Source: Desulfomicrobium sp. ZS1 (GTDB taxonomy: Bacteria > Desulfobacterota > Desulfovibrionia > Desulfovibrionales > Desulfomicrobiaceae). From it: a stretch of 64,000 nucleotides of DNA. The notes below the pieces were generated by a model. The model was not told where the DNA came from, did no database searches, and saw only the letters and a list, made by a program, of their open reading frames with translations. A program made the translations under genes and the position numbers. This document shows, piece by piece, positions 320 to 17,660 of this stretch. Position 1 is the stretch's first letter. Each line of letters begins with the position of its first letter. The stretch lies in contig NZ_CP100351.1 of NCBI RefSeq assembly GCF_024204645.1, positions 1,364,001 to 1,428,000 of the forward strand, given 5' to 3'.

Positions 320-353
320 GAATTCTCCTTGGATGATGTGTTTGACTCGCGGC

Positions 354-736: not shown

Positions 737-751
737 TAAGTCGGAAAGCAT

Positions 752-769: not shown

Positions 770-918
770 CGATGAATAGTTCAGTGTTTTTGGGGTGTTT
801 TAAAATATTCTTCGAGGTGAAGAGTGTTCGGTGGACATTTTTTTATCTTGAAATATGCCTTGATTGGCATAAAAGACAAATCACAATATCAAAATTGACT
901 TAAAATGTGGACCTCTCG

Positions 919-1941: not shown

Positions 1942-1991
1942 AGCCCTGCGCAAAATCTGTTTGAAATAACACGCTATTTGGAGGAACCGGA

Positions 1992-4706
1992 ATGATCAAA
2001 AAGCAAATTGTGGTTAATGGCATCGCCAGAAATCTGGTGGTCGACGCGGAAGATACTCTGGTCAACGTGATCAGGAAAAACATTGGCCTGACCGGCACCA
2101 AGGTCGGTTGCAACGAAGGCCAGTGCGGCGCATGCAGCGTGATCATGGACGGCAAGGTCGTGCGTTCCTGTGCGATCAAGATGAAACGCGTCGAGGATGG
2201 CGCGAACATCACCACCATCGAAGGCATCGGTACTCCGGCCGATCCTCATCCGCTGCAGCTGGCCTGGATGCTTCACGGCGCGGCCCAGTGCGGGTTCTGC
2301 TCCCCGGGCTTCATTGTCTCCGCCAAGGGCCTGCTGGACACCAATCCCAAGCCCACCCGCGACGATGTCCGCGACTGGTTCCAGAAGCACCGCAACGCCT
2401 GCCGGTGCACCGGCTACAAGCCCCTGGTGGACGCCGTCATGGATGCGGCCAAGGTCCTGCGCGGCGAGAAGAGCGCGGCCGACCTCGAGTACAAGATGCC
2501 TAAGGACGGCAGCGTCTGGGGCACCCGCCATCCCCGTCCTTCGGCCCTGGCCAAGGTCACCGGCACCCTGGATTTCGGCGCGGACATGGGCCTGAAGTTG
2601 CCTGAGGGTACCTTGCAGTGCGCTCTGGTGCAGGCCGAAGTCTCCCACGCCAAGATCCTGTCCATCGACACCGCAGAAGCCGAGAAGATGCCCGGCGTGT
2701 TCAAGGTCGTGACCCACAAGGATGTGAAGGGCAAGAACCGCATCACCGGCCTCATCACCTTCCCCTCCAACCTCGGCGACGGCTGGGACCGCCCCATCCT
2801 GTGCGATGAGAAAATCTTTCAGTACGGTGACGCCATCGCCATCGTCTGCGCCGACACTGAAACCAACGCCAAGGCCGCGGCCAAGAAGGTCGTGGTCAAG
2901 CTGGAGCAGTTGCCCGAATACATGAGCGCCCCGGCGGCCATGGCCGAAGACGCCATCGAGATTCATCCCGGCACGCCCAATATCTACTACATTCAGAAGA
3001 TCGCCAAGGGCGGAGAAACAAAGCCCATCTTCGACAAGGCCGACGTGGTGGTCGAAGGCAGCTACTACACGTCCCGCCAGCCCCATTTGCCCATCGAACC
3101 GGACTGCGGTTTTGCCTACATCGATGACGACGGCAAGCTGATCATCCACTCCAAGTCCATCGGCCTGCATCTGCATTTGTACATGATTGCGCCCGGTCTT
3201 GGCGTGGAACCCGACAATATCGCCCTGGTGCAGAATCCCGCCGGAGGCACCTTCGGTTACAAGTTCAGCCCGACCATGGAAGCCCTTGTCGGCGCCGCCG
3301 CCCTGGCCACGGGCCGTCCCGTGAACCTGGTTTACGATTACCGCCAGCAGCAGGCTTACACCGGCAAGCGTTCTCCGTTCTGGACCGATGTGCGCCTGGC
3401 CGCCACCAAGGATGGCAAGCTTCTGGGCATGGAAACCGACTGGACCGTGGACCACGGCCCGTACTCGGAATTCGGCGATCTTTTGACCCTGCGCGGCGCC
3501 CAGTACATCGGTGCCGGTTACGACATTCCGAGCATTCGCGGCGAAGGCCGCACGGTCTGCACCAACCACTGTTGGGGCGCGGCCTTCCGTGGCTACGGCG
3601 CTCCGGAATCCGAGTTCCCGTCAGAGACCTTGATGGACGAACTGGCCGAAAAGCTGGGCATGGACCCCTTCGATCTGCGCTACAAGAACATTTACCGCAA
3701 GGGTTCCACCACCCCCACGGGCCAGGATCCTGAAGTGTACAGCCTACCCGAGATGTTCGACATCATGCGGCCCAAGTACGAAGAAGCCAAGAAACGCGCT
3801 GCTGCGGCCTCCACCGCTGAAATCAAACGCGGCGTGGGTATCGCCCTGGGCGTGTACGGCGCGGGCCTTGACGGCGCGGACAGCGCCGCAGCCGACGCCG
3901 AGCTCATGCCCGACGGCACCGTGACTATCTACGACTGCTGGGAAGACCACGGCCAGGGCGCCGACATGGGCACCCTGGGCACGGCCCATGAGACTTTGCG
4001 TCCCTTGGGCATCACCCCCGACAAGATCCGTCTGGTCATGAACGACACCCGCGTGGCCCCGAACTCCGGGCCCGCCGGCGGCAGCCGTTCCCAGGTCGTG
4101 GTCGGACAGGCCATCGTCAACGCCTGCGAACAGCTGATCAAGGCCATGAAGAAGGGCGACGGCTTCCGCACTTATGACGAGATGGTCGCCGAAAAGCTGC
4201 CTTTGCGCTATAATGGCAAGTGGACCGCTCCGGCCAAGGATTGCGATGCCAACGGCCAGGGCAGCCCCTTCTGCTGCTACATGTACGGCCTGTTCCTGTC
4301 CGAGGTGGCTGTCGATGTCGCGACCGGCAAGACCACCGTCGAGAAGATGTCCATTGTCGGTGATATCGGCAAGGTCAACAACTACTCCCTGGTCGACGGC
4401 CAGATCTACGGTGGCATGGCCCAGGGCATCGGCCTGGCCCTGACCGAAGATTACGAAGACCTGAAGAAGCATGCGACCATGAGAGGCGCGGGTATCCCCT
4501 ACATCAAGGATATCCCGGACAACATGGAGATCACCTACGTGGAAACTTCCCGTCCCGACGGTCCGCACGGTGCCTCCGGCGTCGGCGAGATGCCGCTGAC
4601 CGCTCCCCACGCAGCGGTCCTGAATGGCGTGTACAATGCCTGCGGCGCCCGCATTCGTGAGATTCCCGCATTGCCGGAGAAAATTCTGGCCGCGATGAAA
4701 AAATAA
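1992..4706 (+). CDS. mop: Molybdenum-iron-sulfur aldehyde oxidoreductase Mop
   Basis: A 904-residue xanthine-oxidase-family enzyme that oxidises aldehydes to carboxylic acids using molybdopterin cytosine dinucleotide and two [2Fe-2S] clusters. It is nearly collinear with the crystallised D. gigas enzyme (907 residues). The plant-type cluster cysteines are 40, 45, 48 and 60; the second cluster uses 100, 103, 137 and 139, the same positions as in D. gigas. The Moco domain carries AFRGYGAP and a GASGVGEMPLT segment whose Glu, near residue 866, corresponds to the catalytic Glu869. A GGAGG ribosome-binding site precedes the ATG. The gene ends in a strong terminator, which separates it from the accessory operon. 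There is no signal peptide, so it is cytoplasmic. Confidence 0.97.
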   Translation: MIKKQIVVNGIARNLVVDAEDTLVNVIRKNIGLTGTKVGCNEGQCGACSVIMDGKVVRSCAIKMKRVEDGANITTIEGIGTPADPHPLQLAWMLHGAAQCGFCSPGFIVSAKGLLDTNPKPTRDDVRDWFQKHRNACRCTGYKPLVDAVMDAAKVLRGEKSAADLEYKMPKDGSVWGTRHPRPSALAKVTGTLDFGADMGLKLPEGTLQCALVQAEVSHAKILSIDTAEAEKMPGVFKVVTHKDVKGKNRITGLITFPSNLGDGWDRPILCDEKIFQYGDAIAIVCADTETNAKAAAKKVVVKLEQLPEYMSAPAAMAEDAIEIHPGTPNIYYIQKIAKGGETKPIFDKADVVVEGSYYTSRQPHLPIEPDCGFAYIDDDGKLIIHSKSIGLHLHLYMIAPGLGVEPDNIALVQNPAGGTFGYKFSPTMEALVGAAALATGRPVNLVYDYRQQQAYTGKRSPFWTDVRLAATKDGKLLGMETDWTVDHGPYSEFGDLLTLRGAQYIGAGYDIPSIRGEGRTVCTNHCWGAAFRGYGAPESEFPSETLMDELAEKLGMDPFDLRYKNIYRKGSTTPTGQDPEVYSLPEMFDIMRPKYEEAKKRAAAASTAEIKRGVGIALGVYGAGLDGADSAAADAELMPDGTVTIYDCWEDHGQGADMGTLGTAHETLRPLGITPDKIRLVMNDTRVAPNSGPAGGSRSQVVVGQAIVNACEQLIKAMKKGDGFRTYDEMVAEKLPLRYNGKWTAPAKDCDANGQGSPFCCYMYGLFLSEVAVDVATGKTTVEKMSIVGDIGKVNNYSLVDGQIYGGMAQGIGLALTEDYEDLKKHATMRGAGIPYIKDIPDNMEITYVETSRPDGPHGASGVGEMPLTAPHAAVLNGVYNACGARIREIPALPEKILAAMKK

Positions 4707-4721
4707 TAACCCGTTCAACTT

Positions 4722-4756
4722 CCCTCCGGGTGCTTGCGTGCCCGGAGGGCTTTTTT
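4722..4756 (+). terminator. Rho-independent terminator after mop
   Basis: A nine-base-pair stem (CCCTCCGGG 4722-4730 with CCCGGAGGG 4741-4749) and ten-base loop are followed by six T residues. It lies 15 bases after the mop stop codon and only 18 bases before the next gene. Confidence 0.9.
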
Positions 4757-4773
4757 ATTTTTCAGGAGTGGGC

Positions 4774-7044
4774 ATGGATCAGAAGGAATTGCGGGAATGG
4801 GAAGCCAAATGCATCCAGGAGGAACCCCCGGCTTGCCGCGCCGGTTGCCCCTTGAGCGTTGACGCCCGAGCTTTTGTCCAGGCCATGGCCCGGGACGATC
4901 TGGGCGCGGCGCGGGGCGTTCTTGAAAAGAGCATGCCGCTGGCCGCGATTACCGCCCGGCTGTGCGAGGCTCCGTGCGAAGCTTTTTGCGTACGCAAAGA
5001 CCTGGGCGGAGCCATCGACATCGGTGGTCTCGAACGGCTGTGCATCGAGCGGTCGCAGTCCAAAGTAAAAATGATACGCCTGCCTGCCCGCCCCAAACGT
5101 GTGGCGGTATTCGGCTCTGCGCCGAGCAGTCTGACCGTGGCTTTCGATCTGGCCAGGAAAGGATACCCCGTCGCGGTGCACCATCTGGGCGACGCCCCCG
5201 GCGCATGGCTGCGCGAGTTGCCCGAAACGGTTTTGCCGGCCGCGATACTGGACGAAGAACTGCGACGGCTCGGCACGCTGCACGTCACCTTTATCCCCGT
5301 TCCCGTCCTGGATTGGGCCCTGATCGAAGCCCATTCGGCCGATGCTGTCTATGTGGGTCAGGATGACGCAATTGCTCCGGCACTTCTGACGAGCCTTGGC
5401 TCTGCTGATCTTGATACGTTCGCGCTGGAGCGTTCGGGCTGGTTCACGGGCGGTATGGAAGGGCGCACGCATCGTTTCATCAGCGCCGTGTCCCATGGCC
5501 GCGAGGCCGCTGTATCCATAGACCGTTTTCTGCAGAATGCGTCCCTTACTTCAAGCCGCGTGCCGCTACGCAACGGTCAAACCGCCCTGTTCACCCAGAC
5601 CCGGGATGTCGCGCCGGTTCCCAGGTCGGTTCCGGCTGACGGAGTCAGGTTCACCCGGGAGGAAGGCGTGCGTGAGGCGGCTCGCTGCATCGACTGCCAG
5701 TGTCTGGAATGCGTGCGCCACTGCGTCTATCTGAAAGAGAATAACGGCTATCCCAAATCCTATGCCCGCCGCGTGTTCAACAACCTGGCCATAGTGCAGG
5801 GCGCCCGTCAGGCCAACAAATTCATCAACTCCTGTTCCCTGTGCGGTCAGTGCGAGACCGTGTGCCCCAATGATTTTTCCATGGCCGACATGTGCCTTGA
5901 CGCCCGGCGGCAGATGGTGCGGGAAAAGCGCATGCCGCCCTCGGCCCACTGGTTCGCCCTGGAGGAGATGCGCGCCGCTGGAAGCGAGCAGGCCGCCCTG
6001 GCCCGTCACGCACCGGGCGCGGAAGCGAGCGCGGCCCTCTTTTTCCCAGGTTGCCAGCTTGCCGGAATACGGCCCGCGCAGACGCTGCGCCTCTACGACC
6101 GCTTGCTTGAATTGGAACCGCAAACCGGGATCTGGCTTGATTGCTGCGCGGCCCCGGCTCATTGGTCCGGGCGGACGGAGGAGTTTACGGAGCTTGCGAA
6201 GAAGCTGGAAACGGTCTGGATCGACATGGGTCGCCCCAAGGTCGTCACGGCCTGCTCGACCTGTCTGAAGATGTTCCGCGAGCATCTGCCGCAGCTGGGC
6301 GCTGTTTCAGTCTGGACCATACTGGCCGGTCATTCCGTATCTGCGGCCGCTGCGCATCCGGCGCTGGCCCTGTCGGACCCGTGTACGTCGCGGCATGACG
6401 AAAGGACCAGAAAGGATGTGCGCACGTTGCTCGAAAACATGGGACAGCCCCTCGCCGCTCTGCCCATGTCCGGTGAGCTGACCGAATGCTGCGGGTTCGG
6501 CGGCCTCATGGATAACGCCAATCCGGCCTTGGCCCGCAAGGTCGCGGCGGCCCGCGTGGCCCAGTCCGACGCGGATTTCCTGACCTACTGCGCCATGTGC
6601 CGGGATCAGCTGGCCAAGACCGGCAAGCCTGTGCTGCACATCCTGGACCTTTTGTTCCCGGAGCTGGCGCATCCGGCCAGCGAACCGCCGGCGAGCATCT
6701 CGCTTCGCAGGGCCAACCGGCGCATGCTCAAGACGGCTGTGCTGGAGCGTTACGGCCAGGCCGGTGTCCCTCGGCAGCCATGGGAGGATGTGCATCTTCA
6801 TATATCTACGTCCGTGGCCGCAGTGCTTGAGGAACGCCGCATTCTGGAGGACGATCTGCGTCAGGTCATTTTCCGGTCCAAAGTGAACGGGCGCTGCTTC
6901 GCTCATGGTGATGACGGCCGCAGGATCGCATCGGCCGAACTGGGCGAGGTCACGTTCTGGATGGAATACCGGGAGGAGCAGGGCGTATTCACGGTGCTGA
7001 AAGCCTGGAGTCATCGCATGCGCATCGCGGGAGGACGGATATGA
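4774..7044 (+). CDS. Pyridine-nucleotide-disulfide-oxidoreductase-like Fe-S protein with two CCG domains
   Basis: A 756-residue multi-cluster redox protein. The N-terminus (Cys 13, 21, 25, 64, 68, 72) resembles the GltD-type cluster domain. A Rossmann-like segment follows near residue 108, but its dinucleotide motif is degenerate (FGSAPSS). Two ferredoxin-like cysteine groups lie near residues 304-316 (CIDCQCLECVRHC) and 354-365 (CSLCGQCETVCP). Two heterodisulfide-reductase CCG domains follow (FFPGCQ near 423; ECCGFGG near 571). The ATG at 4774 has AGGAG upstream. It opens the accessory operon behind mop and overlaps the next gene by four bases. It may pass electrons to or from Mop or a maturation step; the partner is not known. 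Confidence 0.82.
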   Translation: MDQKELREWEAKCIQEEPPACRAGCPLSVDARAFVQAMARDDLGAARGVLEKSMPLAAITARLCEAPCEAFCVRKDLGGAIDIGGLERLCIERSQSKVKMIRLPARPKRVAVFGSAPSSLTVAFDLARKGYPVAVHHLGDAPGAWLRELPETVLPAAILDEELRRLGTLHVTFIPVPVLDWALIEAHSADAVYVGQDDAIAPALLTSLGSADLDTFALERSGWFTGGMEGRTHRFISAVSHGREAAVSIDRFLQNASLTSSRVPLRNGQTALFTQTRDVAPVPRSVPADGVRFTREEGVREAARCIDCQCLECVRHCVYLKENNGYPKSYARRVFNNLAIVQGARQANKFINSCSLCGQCETVCPNDFSMADMCLDARRQMVREKRMPPSAHWFALEEMRAAGSEQAALARHAPGAEASAALFFPGCQLAGIRPAQTLRLYDRLLELEPQTGIWLDCCAAPAHWSGRTEEFTELAKKLETVWIDMGRPKVVTACSTCLKMFREHLPQLGAVSVWTILAGHSVSAAAAHPALALSDPCTSRHDERTRKDVRTLLENMGQPLAALPMSGELTECCGFGGLMDNANPALARKVAAARVAQSDADFLTYCAMCRDQLAKTGKPVLHILDLLFPELAHPASEPPASISLRRANRRMLKTAVLERYGQAGVPRQPWEDVHLHISTSVAAVLEERRILEDDLRQVIFRSKVNGRCFAHGDDGRRIASAELGEVTFWMEYREEQGVFTVLKAWSHRMRIAGGRI

Positions 7045-7250
7045 GCCTCGTATTTTTGCCCGAAGACATGAACTGGCGCTGCGAACCGTGCGGCGTGCCC
7101 CTTGAACCCGGCAAGGTCGAACTCGCGTATCTTGGCCAAGTCTTTCATGTGGAGCTTCCGGTCTGCCCGAAATGCGGTGCCGCGTTCGTCTATGAAGAGT
7201 TGGCCCTGGGGCGGATCTTCGAAGTGGAGCAGTTGCTTGAGGACAAATGA
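7041..7250 (+). CDS. Small two-CxxC redox/zinc-ribbon protein (DVU_1557-like)
   Basis: A 69-residue protein with two cysteine pairs, CEPC near residue 15 and CPKC near residue 46, arranged as in rubredoxin-like or zinc-ribbon proteins. Its order in the cluster corresponds to the DVU_1557 family that I associate with Mop accessory loci. It overlaps the preceding oxidoreductase by ATGA, indicating translational coupling. It could be an electron carrier or metal carrier; the sequence does not settle this. Confidence 0.75.
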   Translation: MSLVFLPEDMNWRCEPCGVPLEPGKVELAYLGQVFHVELPVCPKCGAAFVYEELALGRIFEVEQLLEDK

Positions 7251-7938
7251 GCTTTATGCGTCCGCGCCGGTCAGGGCGACCCTGGGACGGGCTCTGCGCC
7301 CGGGCGGCGAGAAGCTGACCCGGCGCATGCTGGAGCTGGCGGGGCCGCTGCGGAGCGCACTGGCCCTCGACGCCGGATGTGGATGCGGGGCGAGCCTGGT
7401 CCTGCTTGAGGAGTATGGAGCGCGGGCCGTGGGGCTGGATCTGAACGCCGGTTTTCTGCGTGAATCCAGTGGCAGGAAGCTGAAGGTCGCGCGGGCCGAT
7501 CTGGCGGAATTGCCTTTGCCTGATGGGTGCGCAGATTTGATTTTGTGTGAATGCGTGTGGAATCTGACCGACAAGGAGAGGGTGCTGGCGGAGTTCTTGC
7601 GGGTCTTGAGGCCAGGAGGCGTGCTTGCTCTGGCCGATATCTACGCCCGTGGGTACAGGGCTGGGGAGTGGCCCGTGCGCTGCTGCTTTGCGCAGGCCAC
7701 GGACCTGCAGACGGTGATGGAACAGGTGGCCGGGGCCGGATTCGAGATTGACGTGGTGGAGGAGCATACGGAACTTTTGAAGAAGACCGCTGCTGATTTC
7801 GTGTTCAGGCACGGATCGTTGCATGGCTTCTGGCAGGCCGTGACCGGTGACCCGGATTTGGCCGTTGCCGCTTGCGAGGCGTCCAAGGCGGCGCGGCCGG
7901 GACTGTTTTTGATGATGGCGCATGCCGCGAAGCGATGA
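7237..7938 (+). CDS. Class I SAM-dependent methyltransferase (DVU_1556-like)
   Basis: A 233-residue methyltransferase-fold protein. The SAM-binding loop LDAGCGCGASL lies near residues 45-55, the second-strand acidic residue is in VGLDLN, and the VLRPGGVLALADI strand is typical of UbiE/COQ5-type enzymes. No ATG fits. The TTG at 7237, with GGAG seven bases upstream, is the best start and overlaps the previous gene by 14 bases. The methylated substrate is unknown. Its fixed place between the CxxC protein and the radical SAM gene suggests a modification step in Mop cofactor maturation, but this is inference. Confidence 0.78.
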   Translation: MRTNELYASAPVRATLGRALRPGGEKLTRRMLELAGPLRSALALDAGCGCGASLVLLEEYGARAVGLDLNAGFLRESSGRKLKVARADLAELPLPDGCADLILCECVWNLTDKERVLAEFLRVLRPGGVLALADIYARGYRAGEWPVRCCFAQATDLQTVMEQVAGAGFEIDVVEEHTELLKKTAADFVFRHGSLHGFWQAVTGDPDLAVAACEASKAARPGLFLMMAHAAKR

Positions 7939-8036
7939 AGAGGATGCGTGTGTGAGACGGCCGGGGTGGGGGTTACCTCCAACGTGGCTGACATCTTACG
8001 TAACAGTACACAAATATTGAACATCACGAGGCCGAA

Positions 8037-8483
8037 ATGAACGAATACGATCTCGACATCCTGCGCCTGCACAGCCAGGGTTTCTGTTGCTCCCAGATTG
8101 TGCTGCAGCTGGCTCTGGAGATGCAGGGCGTGGAAAATCCGGGCCTCATCCGGGCCATGTCCGGGCTGTGCGTGGGCTTCTCGTCTCCGGGGGGCGCTTG
8201 CGGGGCCCTGACCGGGGCGGCGTGCCTCATTGCCTATTATGCGGGCAAGGGCGCGGCTGATGAAGAAGCGCACGACAGACTTTCCCTCATGCTGACCGAG
8301 CTGGCCGATTGGTTCCAGGAGTACGCCACAGGGCGGTTTGGCGGCATCAACTGTTCAAACATCGTTCCTGGCGGCAAGCCGGATGCGTCCATCTGCGGCG
8401 GACTGGTTTCGGAATGTTTCGGTCGGGCCATGACCATTCTGGTGGAAAACGGGTTCGACCCGGCGAGCGATATCCATGAATAA
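8037..8483 (+). CDS. C-GCAxxG-C-C family protein (DVU_1555-like)
   Basis: A 148-residue protein of the C-GCAxxG-C-C redox-active family, likely cytoplasmic. The diagnostic pieces are FCCSQIV near residue 16, GGACGALTGA near residue 51, NCSN near residue 103, and ICGGLVSECFG near residue 120. Family members are thought to bind metal or use conserved cysteines for redox chemistry, but no reaction is established. The ATG has GAGG upstream; the 98-base gap before it is the only sizeable gap in this operon. Its end overlaps the radical SAM gene by eight bases. Confidence 0.8.
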   Translation: MNEYDLDILRLHSQGFCCSQIVLQLALEMQGVENPGLIRAMSGLCVGFSSPGGACGALTGAACLIAYYAGKGAADEEAHDRLSLMLTELADWFQEYATGRFGGINCSNIVPGGKPDASICGGLVSECFGRAMTILVENGFDPASDIHE

Positions 8484-9879
8484 GGTCCTGGGTTCGGTTG
8501 AAAGCGTCTGCCCGGAATGTTTGAACCGGGTGACAGGGGAGCTGCTGCGGGACGGGGACGTCGTGCGGATGGTCAAACGGTGTCCGGAACATGGCGAATT
8601 TTCGACCGTGGTCTGGCGCGGAAATCCGGACTTTTCCAGCTGGGTGCGACCCAAGATTCCGTTTGGTGGCGGCGTGCGGGAGGAAATCGGCAATGGTTGC
8701 CCTTTTGACTGCGGGTTGTGCGCGCGCCATGCCCAGCGGACCTGCACGGCCCTGGTCGAGATCACCTCGCGCTGCAATCTGCGTTGCCCGGTGTGTTTCG
8801 CGGACAGTGGCGGAGCGGGGCCGGATCCGAGCCTGGATGTTTTGCAGCGCATGTTTGAGCAGACGTTGACCCGCACCGGAGGCTGTAACCTGCAACTGTC
8901 CGGTGGAGAACCGACAGTACGCGATGATCTGGAAGAAATCGTGCGTCTGGCCAGAGGGGCCGGTTTCGGTTTTGTCCAGCTCAACACCAACGGGTTGCGT
9001 CTGGCGGATGATTCCGGTTTGGCCGGAAAATTGGCCGAGGCCGGTTTGTCGTCTGTTTTTTTGCAGTTCGACGGCGTGCGTGATGAGACCTTTCGCGCCA
9101 TGCGCGGGAGGGACCTGCTTGAGGTCAAAAAGAAAGCCATCGCGCATGCGTCCACGGCGGGGCTTGGCATCGTGCTTGTGCCGACCGTGGCGCGTGGCGT
9201 AAACGTCGATCAGCTTTGGGATGTTGTCCGGTTTGGGCTGGAGCACCAGCCCCATGTGCGCGGGGTCCATTTTCAGCCCATGAGTTACTTCGGGCGTTAT
9301 CCCGAGGATTTCATCCCGGATCACGTCACGTTGCCGGAGCTCATGACCGGCCTTGAGCTTCAGAGCGGCGGAGTGGTCAAGGCCTCGGACTTTTTGCCTC
9401 CGGGCTGCGAACATGCTCTGTGTTCCTTCTCGGGCAAGTTCATGACCCGTGAGGACGGCAGTTTCGTGCGTCTGGGCAGCGCTTCGTGCGACTGCACGCC
9501 CAAACCCGCCGAAGCCGGGGCGCTCAAATCCATCGGCGTCACGGCCCGTCAGTGGTCCGCGCCTTCCGGAGCGGCCTCCCCCAATCCCCCCTGCACGGGT
9601 CAAGGGGCCAAGCCTCGTGCAGGGCGCGGGGCAGCGCCCCGCATTTCTTCCACCCCCACCTCCACCCCCGACAATGACCTCGACCGCTTCCTGTCCCGGG
9701 CCAGGACGCACACGTTCACCATCTCGGCCATGGCCTTTCAGGACGCCTGGACCCTCAACCTGGAGCGGTTGCAGGGTTGCTGCATCCATGTGGCCCAGCC
9801 CGACGGGCGGCTCATTCCCTTTTGCGCCTTCAACCTGACGGCCAGGGATGGCCGCGCCCTGTATCGGGGGCGAACGTGA
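8476..9879 (+). CDS. trsS: Radical SAM protein of the Mop accessory cluster (TrsS-like)
   Basis: A 467-residue radical SAM enzyme. An N-terminal zinc-finger-like segment (CPEC and RCPEHGEF) is followed by CPFDCGLC near residues 75-82, the [4Fe-4S]/SAM motif CNLRCPVC near residue 100, and LSGGEP near residue 142. It is similar to MoaA/PqqE-type proteins in the core. The C-terminal region has CCIHV and further cysteines. I recognise it as the TrsS family, some members of which are selenoproteins; here all positions are Cys. Residues about 370-392 are an unusual Pro/Gly/Ala-rich linker encoded by a hairpin repeat (9588-9645). It ends in a GTGA overlap with the CoA ligase-like gene. Substrate unknown. 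Confidence 0.82.
   Translation: MNKVLGSVESVCPECLNRVTGELLRDGDVVRMVKRCPEHGEFSTVVWRGNPDFSSWVRPKIPFGGGVREEIGNGCPFDCGLCARHAQRTCTALVEITSRCNLRCPVCFADSGGAGPDPSLDVLQRMFEQTLTRTGGCNLQLSGGEPTVRDDLEEIVRLARGAGFGFVQLNTNGLRLADDSGLAGKLAEAGLSSVFLQFDGVRDETFRAMRGRDLLEVKKKAIAHASTAGLGIVLVPTVARGVNVDQLWDVVRFGLEHQPHVRGVHFQPMSYFGRYPEDFIPDHVTLPELMTGLELQSGGVVKASDFLPPGCEHALCSFSGKFMTREDGSFVRLGSASCDCTPKPAEAGALKSIGVTARQWSAPSGAASPNPPCTGQGAKPRAGRGAAPRISSTPTSTPDNDLDRFLSRARTHTFTISAMAFQDAWTLNLERLQGCCIHVAQPDGRLIPFCAFNLTARDGRALYRGRT
9588..9645 (+). repeat. Hairpin repeat element inserted in frame within the radical SAM gene
   Basis: Two adjacent hairpins occur: CCTGCACG 9590-9597 with CGTGCAGG 9616-9623, and GCGGGGC 9626-9632 with GCCCCGC 9636-9642. 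The layout resembles short intergenic repeats of Desulfovibrio-like genomes. It is translated as a Pro/Gly/Ala/Arg-rich linker with no resemblance to its flanks, which continue as normal family sequence. Confidence 0.6.
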
Positions 9880-11183
9880 ACTGTTCGTCCGTGGATGCCC
9901 TGACCGCCCGGCGGCTGGGTTTGTCTTTGCCGTTGGACCGCTCGAGCCTGGAGGCGGCGCAGCTGGCGAGCCTGCGTCGGACCGTGGCGCACGCCTGCGC
10001 CAAAAGCCCATGGTACCGAGAGCGGCTGGGCGGATTTGATCCCGCCTCCCTGCGCACTTCTGCGGATCTGTCCCGGTTGCCCCTGCTGACCAGCGCGGAA
10101 CTTGCAACCCATGGCGCGGGTCTGGTTTGCGTTTCCCAGAGTAAGGTGGCCCGCATCACCACCTTGCAGACCTCCGGTAGCACAGGCGCTCCCAAACGGC
10201 TGTTTTTCACGCGCGACGATCTGAACTCGACAGTCGATTTTTTTCAGCATGGCATGTTTTCGCTTATTTCATCGGCAGACAAGGTGCTTATCCTGCTGCC
10301 CTGTTCTTTGCCGGACAGCACGGGCGATTTGCTCATCCGCGCCCTGGCCCTGGGCACCGTGCACAGCGAGGGCGTCTGGCCGCCGACGGACTGGGAGGCT
10401 TTGGCCAGGCGCATTTACGACGAGAATTTCACCAGCATCGTCGGCCTGCCTCAGCATCTTCTGGCGCTGGCCTATGTGCTGCCGCACGGTCTGGTGCGAA
10501 CTATGCTCCTTTGCTCGGATTACGCTCCGCAATCATTGCGGTCCCGCATCGAAGCCGTCTGCGGCTGCGAAACATTCCTGCACTACGGCACCACCGAGAC
10601 GGGGCTGGGCGGCGGCGTGGAATGTACGGCGCACGATGGCTGCCACATGCGTGAGTCCGACCTGCTGATTGAGATCGTTGATCCGCGCACAGGCGATCCC
10701 GTGCCCGAAGGGGAAGTGGGAGAGGTGGTCGTCACCACTCTGGGTCGGCAGGCTATGCCGCTGTTGCGTTACCGCACAGGAGACCTGGCCAGCCTGGACA
10801 CTTCGCCCTGCCTCTGCGGCGGGGTCACGGCCAGATTGCGCGACATCCGTGGACGGCGCAGGGCCTGCCCGCTGGCAGGAGGATTTTCCGTGGCCAGCCA
10901 GGATCTTGATGACGTCCTCTTCACGCTGGACGGCCTCTTGGACTATCGCGCCACCTTGAACCGCTTGGCCGGACGAGACGCGATCAGTGTTGAATTCCTG
11001 GCCAGACCGGGGCATGAGTTTCTGGAGCGGGAGATTCATCAGGCTTTGAAGACGGTTCCGTCCCTGAAATCGGCCATGCAAGCCGAGACCTTTGAGACAG
11101 GACCGGTACAGAAGGTGGAGTCATTCTCCCCGTCGCACACCCTCAAACGCACCATCTTCGATAAACGCGGGAGTTACCTATGA
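9876..11183 (+). CDS. AMP-dependent CoA ligase-like protein (DVU_1553-like)
   Basis: A 435-residue member of the adenylate-forming superfamily, closest in layout to phenylacetate-CoA-ligase (PaaK)-like proteins. It has the ATP-binding loop TSGSTGAPK near residue 100, YGTTETGLG for adenine and substrate binding, and a YRTGDLASLD motif. Cysteines in TSPCLCGG may bind metal, as in PaaK relatives. The start is a GTG overlapping the previous stop, with a G-rich ribosome-binding site. The carboxylate it activates is unknown. Its fixed position among Mop accessory genes implies a role in making or loading a cofactor component, but this is not shown. Confidence 0.8.
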   Translation: MNCSSVDALTARRLGLSLPLDRSSLEAAQLASLRRTVAHACAKSPWYRERLGGFDPASLRTSADLSRLPLLTSAELATHGAGLVCVSQSKVARITTLQTSGSTGAPKRLFFTRDDLNSTVDFFQHGMFSLISSADKVLILLPCSLPDSTGDLLIRALALGTVHSEGVWPPTDWEALARRIYDENFTSIVGLPQHLLALAYVLPHGLVRTMLLCSDYAPQSLRSRIEAVCGCETFLHYGTTETGLGGGVECTAHDGCHMRESDLLIEIVDPRTGDPVPEGEVGEVVVTTLGRQAMPLLRYRTGDLASLDTSPCLCGGVTARLRDIRGRRRACPLAGGFSVASQDLDDVLFTLDGLLDYRATLNRLAGRDAISVEFLARPGHEFLEREIHQALKTVPSLKSAMQAETFETGPVQKVESFSPSHTLKRTIFDKRGSYL

Positions 11184-12205
11184 ATGATATATTTCAGTCT
11201 GTTATTGAAGTTTTGCAGCAAGGACAGGAAGCTGTTTTTTGCGGCATCGTCGACAGTTCAGGTTCGGCCCCGCGTACTTCCGGCGCGCGAATGCTGGTGT
11301 TGCCTGATGGCTCCATTCGTGGCTCAGTTGGCGGAGGTCCCGTCGAGGGCGCGTGTCAGGCCAAGGCCAAAAAGTTGCTGCATGGCAATGAGACCCATTT
11401 CCTTTTGTCCTTTGACCTGACCTCGGTCAAAGCCGCCGATGCCGGCATGGTCTGCGGCGGAGCAGTCAAGGTGCTTCTGCAGCGAGTCACGGTGAAGCAT
11501 CTGACATTCTTTGAAGAAATCGAGCGCTTGCAGCGTGAAAGAGAGAGGCCGGTGCTTTTAACCGTCATGCAGTCGGAGCAGGTCCCTGCGCTGGCCGTCT
11601 GGACGGCGCGAGATGGATTGGCGGGAGTCAACTTACCCGAAACCCTCACTACGGAGCTGGCGCGCAAGGCCGTCAAGACGCGCCAGTCATTCAGCCTGGA
11701 AGAGGACGGCTTGCGTGTCTTTGCGGAACCCATCATCGCGCCGACGGTGCTGCATCTGGTCGGCGCGGGACATGTTGCGCTGGCCGCGGCCAAGGTCGCG
11801 GCTTTTAGCGGCTTCGAGGTGGTGGTCATGGACGACCGCTCTGAATTTGCGGATGCCGTGCGTTATCCCGAGGCGCGCGAGGTTCGGGTGCTGGAAAATT
11901 TTGAAGCGTGTCTGAATGATCTTGGGAGCGATGATTACGTGGTCATCGTCACGCGTGGGCACATGCACGACCGCGATGTCCTGGCCCAGGCCCTGAGAAC
12001 TAGGGCAGGTTACATCGGCATGATCGGCAGTCGCAGCAAGCGCGACGCGGTGTACCGTTCCCTGCTGGAATCGGGCTATACAGAGCAGGATCTTGCCCGG
12101 GTGCACTGCCCCATCGGTCTGCCCATCGGAGCCGATACCCCTGAAGAGATCGCGGTCAGCATTGTTGGCGAGATGATCGGTGTGCGAGCGGGATTGCCCG
12201 CATGA
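11180..12205 (+). CDS. XdhC-family molybdoenzyme maturation factor
   Basis: A 341-residue XdhC/CoxI-family protein. XdhC proteins bind the molybdenum cofactor, help its sulfuration and deliver it to xanthine-oxidase-family enzymes; Mop belongs to that family. The N-terminal domain (about 10-90) shows DSSGSAPRTSGARMLV and GSVGGGPVEG. The C-terminal Rossmann domain starts near residue 190 with LVGAGHVALA and includes VMDDR and IGMIGSRSKRDAVY. Overlaps of four bases on both sides (ATGA) indicate coupled translation. It is the clearest link between this operon and Mop. Confidence 0.9.
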   Translation: MNDIFQSVIEVLQQGQEAVFCGIVDSSGSAPRTSGARMLVLPDGSIRGSVGGGPVEGACQAKAKKLLHGNETHFLLSFDLTSVKAADAGMVCGGAVKVLLQRVTVKHLTFFEEIERLQRERERPVLLTVMQSEQVPALAVWTARDGLAGVNLPETLTTELARKAVKTRQSFSLEEDGLRVFAEPIIAPTVLHLVGAGHVALAAAKVAAFSGFEVVVMDDRSEFADAVRYPEAREVRVLENFEACLNDLGSDDYVVIVTRGHMHDRDVLAQALRTRAGYIGMIGSRSKRDAVYRSLLESGYTEQDLARVHCPIGLPIGADTPEEIAVSIVGEMIGVRAGLPA

Positions 12206-13314
12206 CACTGGCCGGGCCTCGCTTCGCGGCGGTCATTCTGTCCGCCGGACTGTCTTCGCGCATGGGGAATTTCAAGCCGCTCATGGATCTGGCGGGGCAA
12301 ACGGTTCTGGCCCGTTGCGTAAGAACGTTCCGGGATGCGGGAATCGCCGAAATCGTGGTCGTGACCGGTCATCGCGCTTCTGAAGTTCAAGTAGAAGTTG
12401 AGAGATTGGGTGTTTCGACCATTCATAATCCCGCTTTCGAGCAGGGCATGTTTTCTTCCGTGCGTGCGGCAGTGTCCTCATTGGCGGGTCTGGACGCCTT
12501 TTTTCTTTTGCCCGTGGACATCCCGCTGGTGCGTCCCGCGACCGTTGATTCTTTGGTTCAGGCGTATGACGGGCGCATCGCCTATCCCTGTTTCAGCGGC
12601 GAGCGCGGACATCCTCCGCTCATTCCCACCCGGCTCGTCCCTGCAATTTTGGGTCACGATGGAAAAGGGGGGATGAAAAGCCTTCTGGAGGGGCATCCGT
12701 CTCTGGACGTGCCTGTCTGGGATCAAGGAGTTCTGCTCGACGCGGACACTCCGGACGACTTCGCGGCCCTGGTCTGTCGCGCTACAAGGCTTTCCGTCGG
12801 CACGAGGGCCGAAGCCGCTCTTCTGACCGCCTTGATCATGCCGGAGTGCGGCGTGGCCCATGGGCGGGCCGCCGCCTCGGTTGCCGTGCGGCTGGGTGAG
12901 GCGCTGAACCGGCAAGGCGGCGCTCTTGATCTGGATTTGATTCACAACGCGGCTCTGCTGCACGATCTGGCCAAGGGGCAGCCCAATCACGAGGCGCGCG
13001 GTGGCGAGCTTTTGACCGGATTGGGCTTGCATGGTCTGGCCGGGATAGTGGCCAGCCATCGCGACGTCCCGCCGCCAGTCTCCGGTGTGCTCTCGGAAAA
13101 GGAAGTGGTCTGCCTGGCGGATAAGTTGGTGCGCGGTTCACGGCGAATTTCCGTGCAGGGGCGTTTCAAGGAAAAACTGGCACTCTACAGTCTGGACGCG
13201 CATGCCTGTCGGGCCATTCGTGGGCGCATGCAAAACGCTCTGGCCTTGCGGGACTTGGTGGAGCGGTGCTGTGGCCGGGACATTGAGGAGATTTTGGACG
13301 GAGTGCTGCTTTGA
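12202..13314 (+). CDS. MobA/MocA-like NTP transferase fused to an HD domain (DVU_1551-like)
   Basis: A 370-residue fusion. The N-terminal half is a nucleotidyltransferase with LSAGLSSRMGNFKPL at residues 13-27 and VDIPLV near 110, as in MocA, which attaches CMP to molybdopterin to form the cytosine dinucleotide used by xanthine-oxidase-family enzymes. The C-terminal half, from about residue 210, is an HD-type domain with HGRAAA, LLHDLAKGQ, HEARGG and ASHRD as probable metal ligands. The HD part may hydrolyse a nucleotide or phosphate ester. Cofactor synthesis for Mop is the likely role of the transferase; the HD substrate is unknown. Confidence 0.87.
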   Translation: MTLAGPRFAAVILSAGLSSRMGNFKPLMDLAGQTVLARCVRTFRDAGIAEIVVVTGHRASEVQVEVERLGVSTIHNPAFEQGMFSSVRAAVSSLAGLDAFFLLPVDIPLVRPATVDSLVQAYDGRIAYPCFSGERGHPPLIPTRLVPAILGHDGKGGMKSLLEGHPSLDVPVWDQGVLLDADTPDDFAALVCRATRLSVGTRAEAALLTALIMPECGVAHGRAAASVAVRLGEALNRQGGALDLDLIHNAALLHDLAKGQPNHEARGGELLTGLGLHGLAGIVASHRDVPPPVSGVLSEKEVVCLADKLVRGSRRISVQGRFKEKLALYSLDAHACRAIRGRMQNALALRDLVERCCGRDIEEILDGVLL

Positions 13315-13904
13315 GCGAGATTTACCTCATCCGCCACGGTGAAATCACGCAGTCCTCGCCGCGTCGTTTCGTCGGTCAGAGCGATCTGCCGCTGACGGAT
13401 CGCGGACGCGAGCAGATGCGGCAGGTAGCCGGGTATCTTGTCGACAGAGGGGTGCGGCGCGTGCTGTGCAGCCCGCTTTCGCGCTGCGTGGAGAGCGCGG
13501 GCATTCTCGGCTCGGCGCTTGGGCTTGAGCCTGAAGTCGCGCCAAATTTGCGCGAGATAGGTCTTGGAGCCTGGGAAGGCTTGACGGTGGAGGAGGTGCG
13601 ACAGCGTTTTCCCGGCGATTATGAGGTCAGGGGCCGCGATCTGGCCGGGTTCCGGCCTGCGGGCGGCGAAAGTTTCGCGGACCTTCAGCGTCGCGCCTGG
13701 GCCGCCTTTGAGGCTGTGGCAGATTCCAATACCACGCAGGCCATCGTCGCCCACGGCGGGGTCAATCGGGTGCTGCTGTGCCGCGTTCTGGGCATGCCTC
13801 TGGAAAACCTGTTCCGGCTGGGACAGGACTATGCCTGCGTGAACATTCTGCACGTCAATGGGGGTGGATGCCTCGTAGGCGCGGTCAATATGCCGTCGTC
13901 GTGA
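13311..13904 (+). CDS. Histidine phosphatase family protein
   Basis: A 197-residue phosphoglycerate-mutase-like phosphatase. The catalytic LIRHGE is at residues 6-11, with the phospho-accepting His at 9; GQSDLPLTDRG, SPLSRCVESA and the second-histidine segment VAHGGVNR are present. CobC-type phosphatases have this layout. The start is TTG at 13311 overlapping the previous stop (TTGA), with CGGAG upstream. As the last gene of the Mop accessory operon it may remove a phosphate from a pathway intermediate; the substrate cannot be read from sequence. Confidence 0.83.
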   Translation: MSEIYLIRHGEITQSSPRRFVGQSDLPLTDRGREQMRQVAGYLVDRGVRRVLCSPLSRCVESAGILGSALGLEPEVAPNLREIGLGAWEGLTVEEVRQRFPGDYEVRGRDLAGFRPAGGESFADLQRRAWAAFEAVADSNTTQAIVAHGGVNRVLLCRVLGMPLENLFRLGQDYACVNILHVNGGGCLVGAVNMPSS

Positions 13905-13954
13905 TTCGGGAGAAAACCGTCTTTCTTTTGAATTGTCGGACGGATACTGACAGC

Positions 13955-14022
13955 TGAAGGGCTGGGGTCCCCCTTGAACCGCGACAGTCGCCGATAACTC
14001 CTCCTCTGCGACAGCGATGGCA
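13955..14022 (+). promoter_or_regulatory. Probable fluoride (crcB-motif) riboswitch aptamer
   Basis: The segment AAGGGCTGGGGTCCCCCTTG (13957-13976) followed by AACCGC and, after a short GCGAC/GTCGC hairpin, CGATAACTCC matches the order of the fluoride aptamer. P1 would be AAGGG 13957-13961 with CCCTT 13971-13975; the pseudoknot-like pairing would be GGGGT 13964-13968 with ACTCC 13997-14001. Some conserved bases differ (CUGG for AUGG, CGAU for UGAU). Its place before crcB supports the call. Confidence 0.6.
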
Positions 14023-14039
14023 GGATTTGTGCGGTCTTG

Positions 14040-14065
14040 AAACCACGCCTGGATGTGGTTTTTTT
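14040..14065 (+). terminator. Terminator-like expression platform before crcB
   Basis: AACCAC 14041-14046 pairs with GTGGTT 14055-14060 and is followed by a T run to 14065. It lies between the aptamer and the crcB start, as expected for ligand-controlled termination. Confidence 0.6.
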
Positions 14066-14160
14066 GTTGGCTCATGCCGTACGCTGTGCGATGCTTGAGG
14101 AAACCGCGGCGGCCGGATGCGCCCCGAGTGGAAATACCATCTTTATTTGAGAGAAAGATG

Positions 14161-14535
14161 ATGTCAAAAATCGCCTTGATCGCCCTGGCCGGAGCCTTCG
14201 GAACCGTGTGCCGGTACTGGCTCTCGGGCTTGGCCTATGACATTCTGGGCAAGGATTTCCCCTGGGGAACATGGGCCGTGAACATACTGGGATGCTTTCT
14301 GTTCGGTCTGGTCTGGATTTTGGCCGAAGAGCGCGGCTTTCTGTCGGCGCAGGCGCGGGTTTTGATCCTGACCGGGTTCATGGGCGCGTTCACCACCTTT
14401 TCCACATTCATCTTCGAGAGCGGCGCCTTGGCCGGCGATGCGCAATGGCTGAAATTCGCGCTCAATGTCGGCGGTCAGAATCTGGTTGGCCTGGCGGCGC
14501 TCTATCTGGGCTCCAATCTCGGCAGGATCATCTAG
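14161..14535 (+). CDS. crcB: Fluoride channel CrcB/FluC
   Basis: A 124-residue inner-membrane protein with four hydrophobic segments. Diagnostic features are GAFGTVCRYWLSG near the N-terminus, the PWGTWAVNILGCFLFG segment and GFMGAFTTFSTFIFE with the phenylalanines that line the pore. It forms dimeric channels that expel fluoride. A second ATG directly upstream (14158) is an equally possible start. The upstream aptamer-like leader suggests fluoride control, and the next gene, DUF190/CBS, starts nine bases after it. Confidence 0.93.
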   Translation: MSKIALIALAGAFGTVCRYWLSGLAYDILGKDFPWGTWAVNILGCFLFGLVWILAEERGFLSAQARVLILTGFMGAFTTFSTFIFESGALAGDAQWLKFALNVGGQNLVGLAALYLGSNLGRII

Positions 14536-14543
14536 GAGGGGCT

Positions 14544-15779
14544 ATGCATTCGTTCGTAAGCGTGAAATTCATGAAGATTTTTTTGGGAGAGGCCGCCAGG
14601 TACAAAGGGCGGCCCCTGCACGAGGCCATCGTCGATGAGGCCCGCCAGCGCGGTCTGGCTGGGGCCACGGTCAGCCGGGGATTCATGGGCTTCGGAGCGA
14701 ACAGTCTTGTGCGCACCTCGAAAATTCTGCGCCTGTCCGAGGACTTGCCGATCATGGTGGAAATCGTGGACACTCCCGAGCGCATCGATTCCTTTGCGCC
14801 GGTGGTCGATGCCATGCTCGAGGACGGCAGCATCGTGATCTCCGAGGCACGGGCCATCTTTCATCTTCCGTTGCGCATCCGGGACGTGATGACCGCCGAT
14901 GTAGTTACGGTGACTCCCGAGACCCCGCTGGCGCAGGTCGTGGAATTGTTGCTGCGCAGAGAAATAAAGGCCGTGCCGGTCATGGACGGCAAAAGGATCG
15001 CGGGCATCATCACGGGCGGAGATCTTTTGTCCAGGGGAGGCATGCCGCTCAGTCTCGACATGCAGTGCGCCCTGCCCTCGGCCATGCGTGATGAACATGT
15101 GCGCTGTCTCGACTTTCAGGATCTGCGCACCGCCGATGTCATGACCCGGCCCGTGCAGACGCTCAATATCAAGACCAAAGTGTCCGACGCGCTGCAATTC
15201 ATGGCCAAGGGGGGCCTGAAGCGTCTGCCCGTGGTGGCCGATGACGGCAGCCTGATGGGCATTGTCAGCCGGGCGGATGTGCTCACGGCCATGGGGCGCG
15301 CCTCGGCGGTGGCCGGACATCTGGACGTGTTGCCCGAAGGCATGCGCGGTTTTGCGCGTGATGTCATGTATCGCAACGTGCCCACCGCCGGGGGCGATAC
15401 TCCCTTGCCCGATATTTTGGAGCGGCTGGTCGCCTCGCCTTTGCGCCGGGTGGTCATCGTGGACGGGGAGGGCAGGATCGAGGGTATCGTCCATGACCGC
15501 GACCTGTTGCAGCATTTCGCCCGTCAGAACGCGCCCGGAATTCTGACCAGGCTGATCGGTTTTTTGTCCCAGCCGAAGCTTGGATTCACCATCTCCGGCG
15601 GAACGGCCAGGGACGTGATGGCGACCAGGGTCATCACCATCGCGCCTCAACTGCCCTTGCCCGACGTGATTCGGACCCTGCTCGAGCACAGGATCAAGCG
15701 GGTCGCGGTGGCCGACGAGTCGGGACGCCTGCTCGGCATGGTGGACCGGGACACGGTGCTGAAGGGTTTGGCGGGTTGA
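14544..15779 (+). CDS. DUF190 domain protein with four CBS domains
   Basis: A 411-residue protein. Residues 1-110 match DUF190 (MKIFLGEAARYKGRPLHEAIV and a FGANS segment), a small PII-like domain frequently encoded next to crcB. The rest holds CBS motifs near residues 120, 195, 270 and 355, for example IRDVMTADVVTVTPETPL and TADVMTRPVQTLN, which usually bind adenine nucleotides. No membrane segment is present. GGAGG precedes the ATG, and the gene is probably in the crcB operon. A regulator of the fluoride channel is a reasonable guess, not shown. Confidence 0.85.
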   Translation: MHSFVSVKFMKIFLGEAARYKGRPLHEAIVDEARQRGLAGATVSRGFMGFGANSLVRTSKILRLSEDLPIMVEIVDTPERIDSFAPVVDAMLEDGSIVISEARAIFHLPLRIRDVMTADVVTVTPETPLAQVVELLLRREIKAVPVMDGKRIAGIITGGDLLSRGGMPLSLDMQCALPSAMRDEHVRCLDFQDLRTADVMTRPVQTLNIKTKVSDALQFMAKGGLKRLPVVADDGSLMGIVSRADVLTAMGRASAVAGHLDVLPEGMRGFARDVMYRNVPTAGGDTPLPDILERLVASPLRRVVIVDGEGRIEGIVHDRDLLQHFARQNAPGILTRLIGFLSQPKLGFTISGGTARDVMATRVITIAPQLPLPDVIRTLLEHRIKRVAVADESGRLLGMVDRDTVLKGLAG

Positions 15780-15866
15780 GGCGGGCGTGTTTTCATGTGT
15801 AAAACCGTAAAGGCTACGCGTGATTTCCGCAATTGTTTCGAGCAACTACGATTGATGGGTGGTCAG

Positions 15867-15887
15867 AAGCCCGGAAGGCCCGGGCTT
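15867..15887 (-). terminator. Hairpin between the CBS gene and the FadL-like gene
   Basis: AAGCCCGG 15867-15874 pairs with CCGGGCTT 15880-15887 over a five-base loop, between two converging genes. The T tract is short on both strands, so its strength as a bidirectional terminator is uncertain. Confidence 0.5.
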
Positions 15888-15919
15888 TCCGACTCGCCTC
15901 ACTGCCCAACCGCGTCGGG

Positions 15920-17104: not shown

Positions 17105-17511
17105 CGTTCCTCCTCATCGAACACAGGTTCATGCACGTCCCGCCGGACGCGCGACAACCTCAGGCGCATAAAAGTTTTTTTCAGTCATCTCAAGGGGAAT
17201 GGCTAAAGTAAGCACTCAGTCGCGAGGGAGGCAGGCATGGGAAATTTCGCGAATTCCCAGGAAAGAAAAGGGCTGGTGGCATTGAGCGTTGCCCGGAAGG
17301 GTGTTTTCATGTGATGTGAACAGGTTGAGATGGGCGTATTTCGAGAAATCAATGCCGGCGGATGGTGGCCTGACAATCGTGTCGTGTGCGTCAGGTTCTG
17401 CAAATTTTGCCACGGCATGACGGGTAAGCTCAAGCCGCTGGCGACCGAGCCCACCCAGAGTCCATCGGAGGTCGTGAACGCGCCAAGCACACGATCCGAC
17501 AGCAGTCGCGC

Positions 17512-17556
17512 CAACTCCCCTCCTGCCAAGGAGGGGTGCCCGAAGGGCGGGGTGGT
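17512..17556. repeat. 45-bp dispersed repeat, copy 1
   Basis: Begins CAACTCCCCTCCTGCCAAGG and ends GGTGGT; identical or nearly so to 24983-25027 and 25964-26008. It contains two short hairpins (CCCCTCC/GGAGGGG and CCCG/CGGG), like REP-type intergenic repeats. Confidence 0.85.
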
Positions 17557-17585
17557 ATCTTCTTCAACGGGAAATCCTTCCGCCC

Positions 17586-17623
17586 GACAATCGCCGCTCC
17601 GGGTGTCCGGAGCGGCGATTGTC
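17586..17623 (-). terminator. Long perfect hairpin downstream of the TiaS-like gene
   Basis: A 17-bp perfect stem, 17586-17602 with 17607-17623, and a GTGT loop. It lies 38 bases beyond the stop codon of the leftward operon. It lacks a T tract, so it may protect the RNA 3' end or be a repeat rather than a classical terminator. Confidence 0.45.
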
Positions 17624-17660
17624 AGACCTGATGAAATCTGGATTCGGGAGCGGTCGGGGC

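Follow-up and report, generated by a model that had tools for sequence, protein, structure and literature searches.

Two separable modules in a nine-gene set behind mop in Desulfomicrobium sp. ZS1, a possible accessory operon of the aldehyde oxidoreductase

Gene content and layout of the mop locus

We examined a window of 64,000 nucleotides (positions 1364001-1428000) from the one-contig genome of Desulfomicrobium sp. ZS1 (3,867,579 bases), in which nine genes lie directly 3′ of mop, the gene for a single-chain molybdopterin aldehyde oxidoreductase (Mop; 1992-4706 in window coordinates, + strand). A sequence-only reading of this DNA had described nine tightly spaced or overlapping genes after mop and named their domains; scans for open reading frames (ORFs) and domains found all nine, with these domains, on the + strand at 4774-13904. 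Curated NCBIfam cut-offs are passed by eight of the nine genes, the phosphatase being the exception, and these cover all eight DVU_155x/TrsS/AOR families (NF045645, NF045646, NF045663 to NF045667 and NF045669). The nine genes fall into two separable modules. Module B, also called the core here, consists of the first six genes. It begins with a Fer4_20/Fe-S dicluster/CCG (HdrB-like) protein, below the CCG protein (4774-7044; NF045663, 933 bits, cut-off 530; matches to Fer4_20, Fer4_17 and CCG), followed by a small double-CxxC protein of 69 aa (7041-7250; NF045645, 98.8 bits, cut-off 60; PF24292, DUF7479), a class I S-adenosylmethionine (SAM) methyltransferase (7237-7938; NF045667, 204.2 bits, cut-off 155), an all-helical C-GCAxxG-C-C protein with four invariant cysteines (8037-8483; NF045669, 173.4 bits, cut-off 103), the radical SAM protein TrsS (8476-9879; NF045646, 634.4 bits, cut-off 490) and a PaaK-like adenylate-forming ligase with a GTG start (9876-11183; NF045666, 402.3 bits, cut-off 300, the score being taken on the ORF from an upstream TTG at 9777). 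Module A comprises an XdhC-type molybdenum (Mo)-cofactor maturation factor (11180-12205; NF045664, 402.9 bits, cut-off 350), a MocA-like NTP transferase-HD fusion (12202-13314; NF045665, 416.9 bits, cut-off 315; PF12804 and PF01966) and a branch 1 histidine phosphatase with a TTG start (13311-13904; PF00300, 194.3 bits). The start of the methyltransferase gene is uncertain: an in-frame TTG lies at 7237, and the profile match begins at 7291. Provided that this TTG is the start, seven of the eight junctions are overlaps of 4-14 bases; the one true gap in the set, 98 nt, separates the methyltransferase gene from the C-GCAxxG-C-C gene.

Mop scores 1701.6 bits against the family of Mop-type aldehyde oxidoreductases (NF045668, cut-off 1100), falls under the cut-off of the selenium-dependent xanthine dehydrogenase model (TIGR03311, 448.8 bits, cut-off 830.45) and has two PDB matches at E ≤ 1e-150, 1DGJ and 1SIJ. 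The gene 5′ of mop, on the + strand at 907-1941, encodes a MoCF_biosynth-domain protein of 344 aa (PF00994, 80.9 bits), which lies under the cut-off of TIGR00177 (57.3 bits, cut-off 85.35). As a recurrent neighbour, this protein formed a cluster of 36 loci, and tblastn gave matches in 61 loci (duplicates and L060 included). L060 is a second Mo-hydroxylase locus of the source genome (G000:C1:236000-255000), with MoCF-like, NTP-transferase-like and GltD-like matches and, within the locus, no TrsS match.

Between mop and the nine-gene set, at 4722-4757 on the + strand, lies a hairpin that resembles an intrinsic terminator, with a stem of 12 pairs, nine of them GC, and a T tail (CTTTTTTATT). Terminator-like sites are rarer in 800-15000 than in shuffled sequences (9 versus 13.1), so that only the strength of this hairpin speaks for it. 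In the gaps between mop and the CCG gene across loci, a loose rule, applied without a shuffle control, found a hairpin in 30 of 52 rows and a stem of at least 11 pairs in 18 of 52 (one genome counted twice). No sigma-70 promoter was predicted in 800-15000, where shuffles give 2.6, and no Rfam RNA reached the gathering score in window positions 1-20000. The hairpin suggests that the nine genes may be expressed by read-through from mop, at a lower level than mop itself. Neither this hairpin nor the MoCF gene figures in the sequence-only reading. Downstream of the set, a crcB fluoride-transporter gene follows at 14039-14535, a region without an Rfam match. A further terminator-like hairpin overlaps the first start of this ORF, and the true crcB start is therefore probably further in.

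Distribution of the two modules

We then examined how Mop and TrsS are distributed over 297 genomes of the Desulfovibrionales. A fragment search called Mop in 193 genomes (E ≤ 1e-60), and TrsS was called in 183 (E ≤ 1e-110), 179 of them over the curated cut-off. Both were present in 178 genomes, Mop only in 15, TrsS only in five and neither in 99, a profile that ties the set to Mop, as the sequence-only reading had expected. In a set of 61 relatives, TrsS was over its cut-off in 26 and Mop in 29. Eight of the 15 Mop-only genomes were inspected (all except G008, G225, G229, G286, G306, G318 and G320), and seven of these have core genes behind Mop: three (G108, G157, G168) hold the complete set, their TrsS match being longer or split in two, and in four (G247, G291, G010, G019) at least the CCG gene is present, the stretch being short or the contig ending there. 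The sole inspected Mop-only genome without the core behind Mop was G017. Of the five TrsS-only genomes, one was inspected (G005), and it ends at a contig edge inside TrsS. In summary, Mop rarely lacks module B in this order.

The association extends well beyond the order. A wide scan with a TrsS alignment, of which the best 80 loci of a longer list were analysed, placed Mop in the locus in 54 of 80, and 51 of these 54 hold at least four of the five other core genes. Mop and core genes, mostly in the same order, were found in Desulfobacterota, Firmicutes, Chloroflexi, Spirochaetes, Alphaproteobacteria, Acidobacteria and Synergistota, the carriers including Clostridium tyrobutyricum, Acetobacterium, Sporomusa, Desulfosporosinus, Chloroflexi, Spirochaetes, Pleomorphomonas, Acidobacteriaceae and Synergistaceae. 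Gene order varies somewhat, the NTP transferase-HD gene lying, for example, 5′ of TrsS in Alphaproteobacteria. Since the genes recur together across phyla, and nearly all Mop-holding TrsS loci carry most of the core, their grouping is not due to chance. Besides the MoCF protein and one cluster without a match, the annotated recurrent neighbour clusters comprised an ABC ATPase (19 loci, at scattered distances), sigma-54 response regulators (10 loci), an ABC permease (9 loci) and a desulfurase-like protein (5 loci). The sigma-54 regulators (e.g., L083:10241-11629), chiefly from Firmicutes, are encoded on the same strand as TrsS and mostly 5.6-6.0 kb downstream of it, thus just past the phosphatase. 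Two Mop-like genes in the wider set are irregular: one (L056:8151-10697), which at 1056 bits narrowly misses the cut-off, contains an in-frame TGA close to its start that could reflect either recoding or a shifted start, and one in Clostridium ragsdalei (G062:C43:1167-3874) is in two overlapping pieces with in-frame TGA stops, as after a frameshift, in a genome that also has an intact Mop.

Module A looks like known Mo-cofactor maturation by its families, XdhC (NF045664) and the NTP transferase-HD protein (NF045665) both being over their cut-offs; this agrees with the earlier view that XdhC and a cytidylyltransferase fit this maturation. The NTP transferase-HD protein stays under the cut-off of the MocA model itself (TIGR03310, 125.2 bits, cut-off 186.45). 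The phosphatase, for which the His_Phos_1 threshold is passed, misses the cut-off of the alpha-ribazole phosphatase CobC by 6 bits (TIGR03162, 157.0 bits, cut-off 162.9). Module A can occur separately: six of the 61 relatives (G024, G025, G029, G032, G040, G052) have XdhC or the NTP transferase-HD protein over the cut-off with both Mop and TrsS under theirs, and in G017 the genes for XdhC, the NTP transferase-HD protein and the phosphatase are clustered away from Mop, without any core gene among them. Conversely, no module A gene was seen in 17 of the 54 Mop loci, some of which end early. In one locus (L083:5624-7390), NTP transferase, HD and histidine phosphatase are fused in a single protein of 588 aa. 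This fusion and the G017 cluster indicate that the phosphatase belongs with the cofactor module, and the proposal that phosphatase and HD steps stand at the end of a ligand synthesis is better replaced by this assignment. A cluster of class V aminotransferases from five loci would be in keeping with sulfur handling by XdhC; its sole annotated member is cysteine-desulfurase-like, with a score below the cut-off for that model.

TrsS also occurs apart from Mop. In a TrsS tree, one clade (support 1.0), whose place on the backbone is not fixed, unites L123, L126, L135 and the second L136 copy. TrsS is over the cut-off in L123, L135 and L126 (581.7, 595.0 and 554.9 bits, respectively), as are the ligases, and the methyltransferases of L123 and L135 exceed the family cut-off, one of them by 1 bit. 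L123 and L135 hold CCG-like, CxxC, methyltransferase, TrsS and ligase genes, and in L126 TrsS is accompanied by the ligase alone among the core genes. The Mop model gave no match even at E ≤ 1e-50 in the genomes of L123 and L135 (G066 and G073) and none over 476 bits in that of L126 (G069), all three being metagenome-assembled genomes (MAGs) whose completeness is not established. There was also no Mop match in G072 (L134), whose TrsS groups with those of Mop-bearing relatives. The expectation that the operon would not be common in genomes lacking a Mop-type enzyme is partly contradicted by this TrsS clade, and G017, with Mop and module A but neither TrsS nor the CCG protein over the cut-off, counts in part against the same sequence-only reading. 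As the core is found without Mop, and Mop without the core was verified once, it seems to be Mop that depends on the core. A Cys-rich DUF5714 domain recurs near TrsS: it lies behind TrsS in one ORF of Desulfosporosinus BRH_c37 (L089:9965-12142) and close to TrsS in L126 (60-5370) and L128 (9068-9559). In the L126 run, TrsS is succeeded by another TrsS-like gene, which at 402.7 bits misses the cut-off, and then by the ligase, DUF5714 and a lipoate-protein-ligase-like gene.

Conserved cysteines and the possible role of module B

The proteins of module B are rich in invariant cysteines. In TrsS, the radical SAM cysteines C100, C104 and C107 (CxxxCxxC; PF04055, 79.8 bits) are present in 77 of 77 sequences, as are C12, C15, C36, C75, C79, C82, C90 and C316; Pfam also detects an HMPTM zinc ribbon, and the nearest solved relative by sequence is the tetraether synthase 7TOL (283 bits), with which many of the cysteines are common. 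A review table lists TrsS as a selenoprotein name (PMC13188914, of which the table entry is used here). We found no in-frame TGA at a Cys position of the window gene, which is open with Cys throughout, and in the TrsS matches of loci L027-L154 a TGA appeared only past the end of TrsS or in a second, weak match of L140 (65 bits); a selenoprotein reading was thus rejected for this trsS locus. A palindrome-rich short repeat lies in frame within trsS at 9585-9660; three more partial copies (84-86% identical) are present in the genome, and similar-looking in-frame inserts occur in sister species.

The methyltransferase carries a Cys pair, one invariant (66/66) and the second present in 60 of 62 sequences. 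Cys106 and Cys150 align with the arsenic-binding Cys174 and Cys224 of CmArsM, which, according to a passage of PMC3877260, are the two needed to methylate methylarsenite. Arsenic methylation as such was rejected, because the two cysteines fit and the family score (PRK11873, 53.2 bits, cut-off 263) and the overall fold do not. By fold, the protein is nearest to small-molecule methyltransferases, for example AtmM (Z 23.8, root-mean-square deviation (rmsd) 3.1, 226 residues aligned). On the arsenite methyltransferase model, the window protein (53 bits) scores lower than its counterparts in L123 and L135 (98 and 103 bits). The Cys pair may be a site for a soft atom, a thiol or a metalloid, and we do not take it as proof of arsenic.

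In the C-GCAxxG-C-C protein, C18, C55, C106 and C120 are present in 47 of 47 sequences. Its structural model (pLDDT 93.1) gives an outstanding match only with the split-Soret cytochrome c 1H21 (Z 10.9, rmsd 3.2, 130 aligned; the next row has Z 4.5), the title of which entry names a novel iron centre. The profile E value for this pair is 0.001, helical folds score high by chance, and Foldseek gave no match for the model at E ≤ 0.001. By this modelled likeness, the four cysteines could hold a cluster. The CCG protein has 25 cysteines that are present in every aligned sequence covering them (62 or 63); the idea that CCG proteins linked to Mop generally have a degenerate flavin motif was dropped, GxGxxG being kept in 30 of 63. 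The ligase matches PDB 4R1L (122.9 bits) and lies under the cut-off of the PaaK model (TIGR02155, 109.3 bits, cut-off 646.3). Three residues before its conserved C-terminal Arg, which we take to be the place of the catalytic Lys in PaaK-type enzymes, the leading residues are T, P, M, A, S and R (55 of 72 rows; 17 unlisted).

We propose, with a probability of about 0.4, that the nine genes are an accessory operon of Mop and that module B yields a transient or dissociable product, or performs a reducing service, on which Mop depends. Module A, together with the MoCF protein, would, judging by family, make and insert the cytosine-dinucleotide Mo cofactor. Module B would be a portable radical-SAM chemistry set that makes or delivers a small, activated, methylated ligand by way of a series of thiol and Fe-S proteins. 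The ligase would activate or bind an acid, TrsS would catalyse a radical C-C or methylation-type step, the methyltransferase would act on a soft atom held by its two cysteines, and the CCG, CxxC and C-GCAxxG-C-C proteins would supply electrons or carry intermediates. Mop would need module B for assembly, activation or electron transfer, the product being not kept or lost on purification, and the hairpin after mop would fit helpers made in smaller amount. We infer these steps, and the direction of dependence, from gene content, conservation, co-occurrence, separability and conserved cysteines. To our knowledge, a radical SAM protein, a methyltransferase and a ligase occur in no known Mo-cofactor pathway, and here we agree with the sequence-only reading. 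A narrower form of the proposal, which we regard as doubtful, is that the six-gene TrsS core makes a new dissociable small-molecule cofactor or ligand by means of radical SAM chemistry, a methyltransferase acting on a soft atom and a ligase activating an acid, that Mop uses this product in vivo and loses it on purification, and that the second TrsS clade makes a sister version for an ATP-dependent benzoyl-CoA-reductase-like pair.

Several observations weigh against this proposal. G017, a genome of 100% completeness, keeps Mop and module A without TrsS or the CCG protein over the cut-off (the CCG model giving only a partial match of 220 bits, cut-off 530, in a genome-wide search for these two); its Mop is also not fast-evolving (root-to-tip 0.65, median 0.76). 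At TrsS loci without a nearby Mop, Mop was over the cut-off elsewhere in only 14 of 25 genomes, one more being 0.3 bits short and many being MAGs of uncertain completeness (L093, a 26th such locus, lies outside this count). In the Mop-free clade, no C-GCAxxG-C-C gene was seen in L123 or L135. Mop distances correlate with core-gene distances at 0.25-0.67, and core genes among themselves at 0.67-0.82 (CxxC excluded), which, without a background set, is weak evidence. A substrate could be assigned to no core enzyme. Finally, the active enzyme from Desulfovibrio gigas is described without a trace of an extra product in passages of PMC3877041 and PMC10223205.

Alternatively, module B could be a metabolic pathway that includes Mop, in which the acid that Mop forms from an aldehyde is activated by the ligase and altered by TrsS and the methyltransferase, a reductase pair replacing Mop in the other TrsS clade. 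We consider this rather unlikely. It agrees with the PaaK-like family of the ligase and with the neighbours of L123 and L136, where core genes adjoin, partly on the other strand, an HGD-D pair (2-hydroxyacyl-CoA dehydratase/benzoyl-CoA reductase-like) and a BadF ATPase; between the two loci the HGD-D proteins are 44% and 47% identical and the ATPase 68%, the nearest model for the pair is a double-cubane reductase (under its cut-off), and L123 also carries a MaoC-like dehydratase. In G074 (L176, G074:C118), the neighbour of the Mop cassette on the same contig is an HGD-D reductase module that has a second TrsS of its own. However, the HGD-D neighbours come from two genomes only, no annotated neighbour cluster names a substrate, and the Mop of D. 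gigas accepts many simple aldehydes.

The D. gigas enzyme also bears on what is kept in Mop. PDB 1SIJ is 100% identical over 248 aa to the Mop of G117, which we took for D. gigas, and behind mop G117 has CCG, CxxC, methyltransferase, C-GCAxxG-C-C, TrsS, ligase, XdhC and phosphatase genes, the NTP transferase-HD gene not being among them. According to the passages of PMC3877041 used here, active and inactive batches of the enzyme differ in the oxidation state of the dithiolene S7, and dithionite with sulfide reactivates it, which would be compatible with a labile ligand or with a system that activates Mop in vivo. The core might thus serve the reductive activation or repair of Mop, the CCG protein and the thiol and Fe-S proteins re-reducing an oxidised dithiolene while TrsS and the methyltransferase modify a carrier. 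The 25 fully conserved cysteines of the CCG protein are in line with this, but the radical SAM protein, the methyltransferase and the ligase are left unexplained, and we judge it unlikely. Passages of PMC3877041 and PMC10223205 describe the enzyme isolated from D. gigas cells as containing pyranopterin cytosine dinucleotide and two [2Fe-2S] clusters, with native structures at 1.57 and 1.75 Å. Given this plain cofactor and the core in the matching genome, a pterin change that is kept appears unlikely. A Mop residue lost along with the core was rejected as a modification site: among positions at least 97% conserved in 99 other Mop rows, which include duplicates and of which only some were checked for the core, the G017 Mop differs at positions 105 and 305 only, so that none stands out as modified. 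An extra cofactor or modified pterin staying bound to Mop, the suggestion of the sequence-only reading, is therefore very improbable, even with the linkage to Mop on which it drew, the HMPTM zinc ribbon of TrsS and the relationship of TrsS to MJ0619, reportedly once described as a pterin methylase; its tie to Mop stands, and its retained product does not fit what is described for the D. gigas enzyme.

The locus had been called incompletely described, which fits: NCBIfam supplies names for eight of the nine families, and a literature search on DVU1551, 1552, 1554, 1557, 1558 and 1559 found only DVU1558 and DVU1559 named. Haft and Tolstoy 2025 is said to be the source paper of TrsS. NCBI curators already have these families, and the locus itself is therefore not novel. 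The word operon is absent from a 2023 history of the D. gigas aldehyde oxidoreductase (PMC10223205). This enzyme has been a model Mo enzyme for decades, and the presence of six conserved genes with Mop in most genomes of the order would mean either that its maturation is not understood or that Mop is a step in an undescribed pathway. Both options are open to testing in a sulfate reducer that is genetically tractable, such as D. vulgaris Hildenborough, where homologues of the set are neighbours of DVU1559. Through the second TrsS clade, the core's product could be approached from another side.

Comparison with known systems

Module A resembles the maturation sets of Mo hydroxylases such as xanthine dehydrogenase and PaoABC in having XdhC and an NTP transferase like the MocA/PucB type beside a Mo hydroxylase. 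It differs from them in the additional HD domain, the phosphatase and the six further genes, and in that module A can stand apart.

For module B, the likenesses are to single proteins. TrsS has in common with the tetraether synthase Tes (MJ0619, 7TOL) the radical SAM core, a zinc-ribbon start and many cysteines, with a match over 10-309 and 406-457. It scores 324.4 bits on the Tes family (NF045702, cut-off 450), and longer Tes-like paralogs are separate in the order; lipid tetraether synthesis was thus rejected. The methyltransferase shares the Cys pair with ArsM, but is 233 aa long, versus 377-387. The modelled C-GCAxxG-C-C protein has a helical fold that may correspond to the Fe-centre domain of split-Soret cytochrome c, with 20% identity and a match that covers part of the 247-residue chain. 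Finally, the ligase shares its fold family, P-loop and C-x-C-G motif with PaaK and coenzyme F390 synthetase, but lies below their cut-offs and has other residues at the presumed Lys position.

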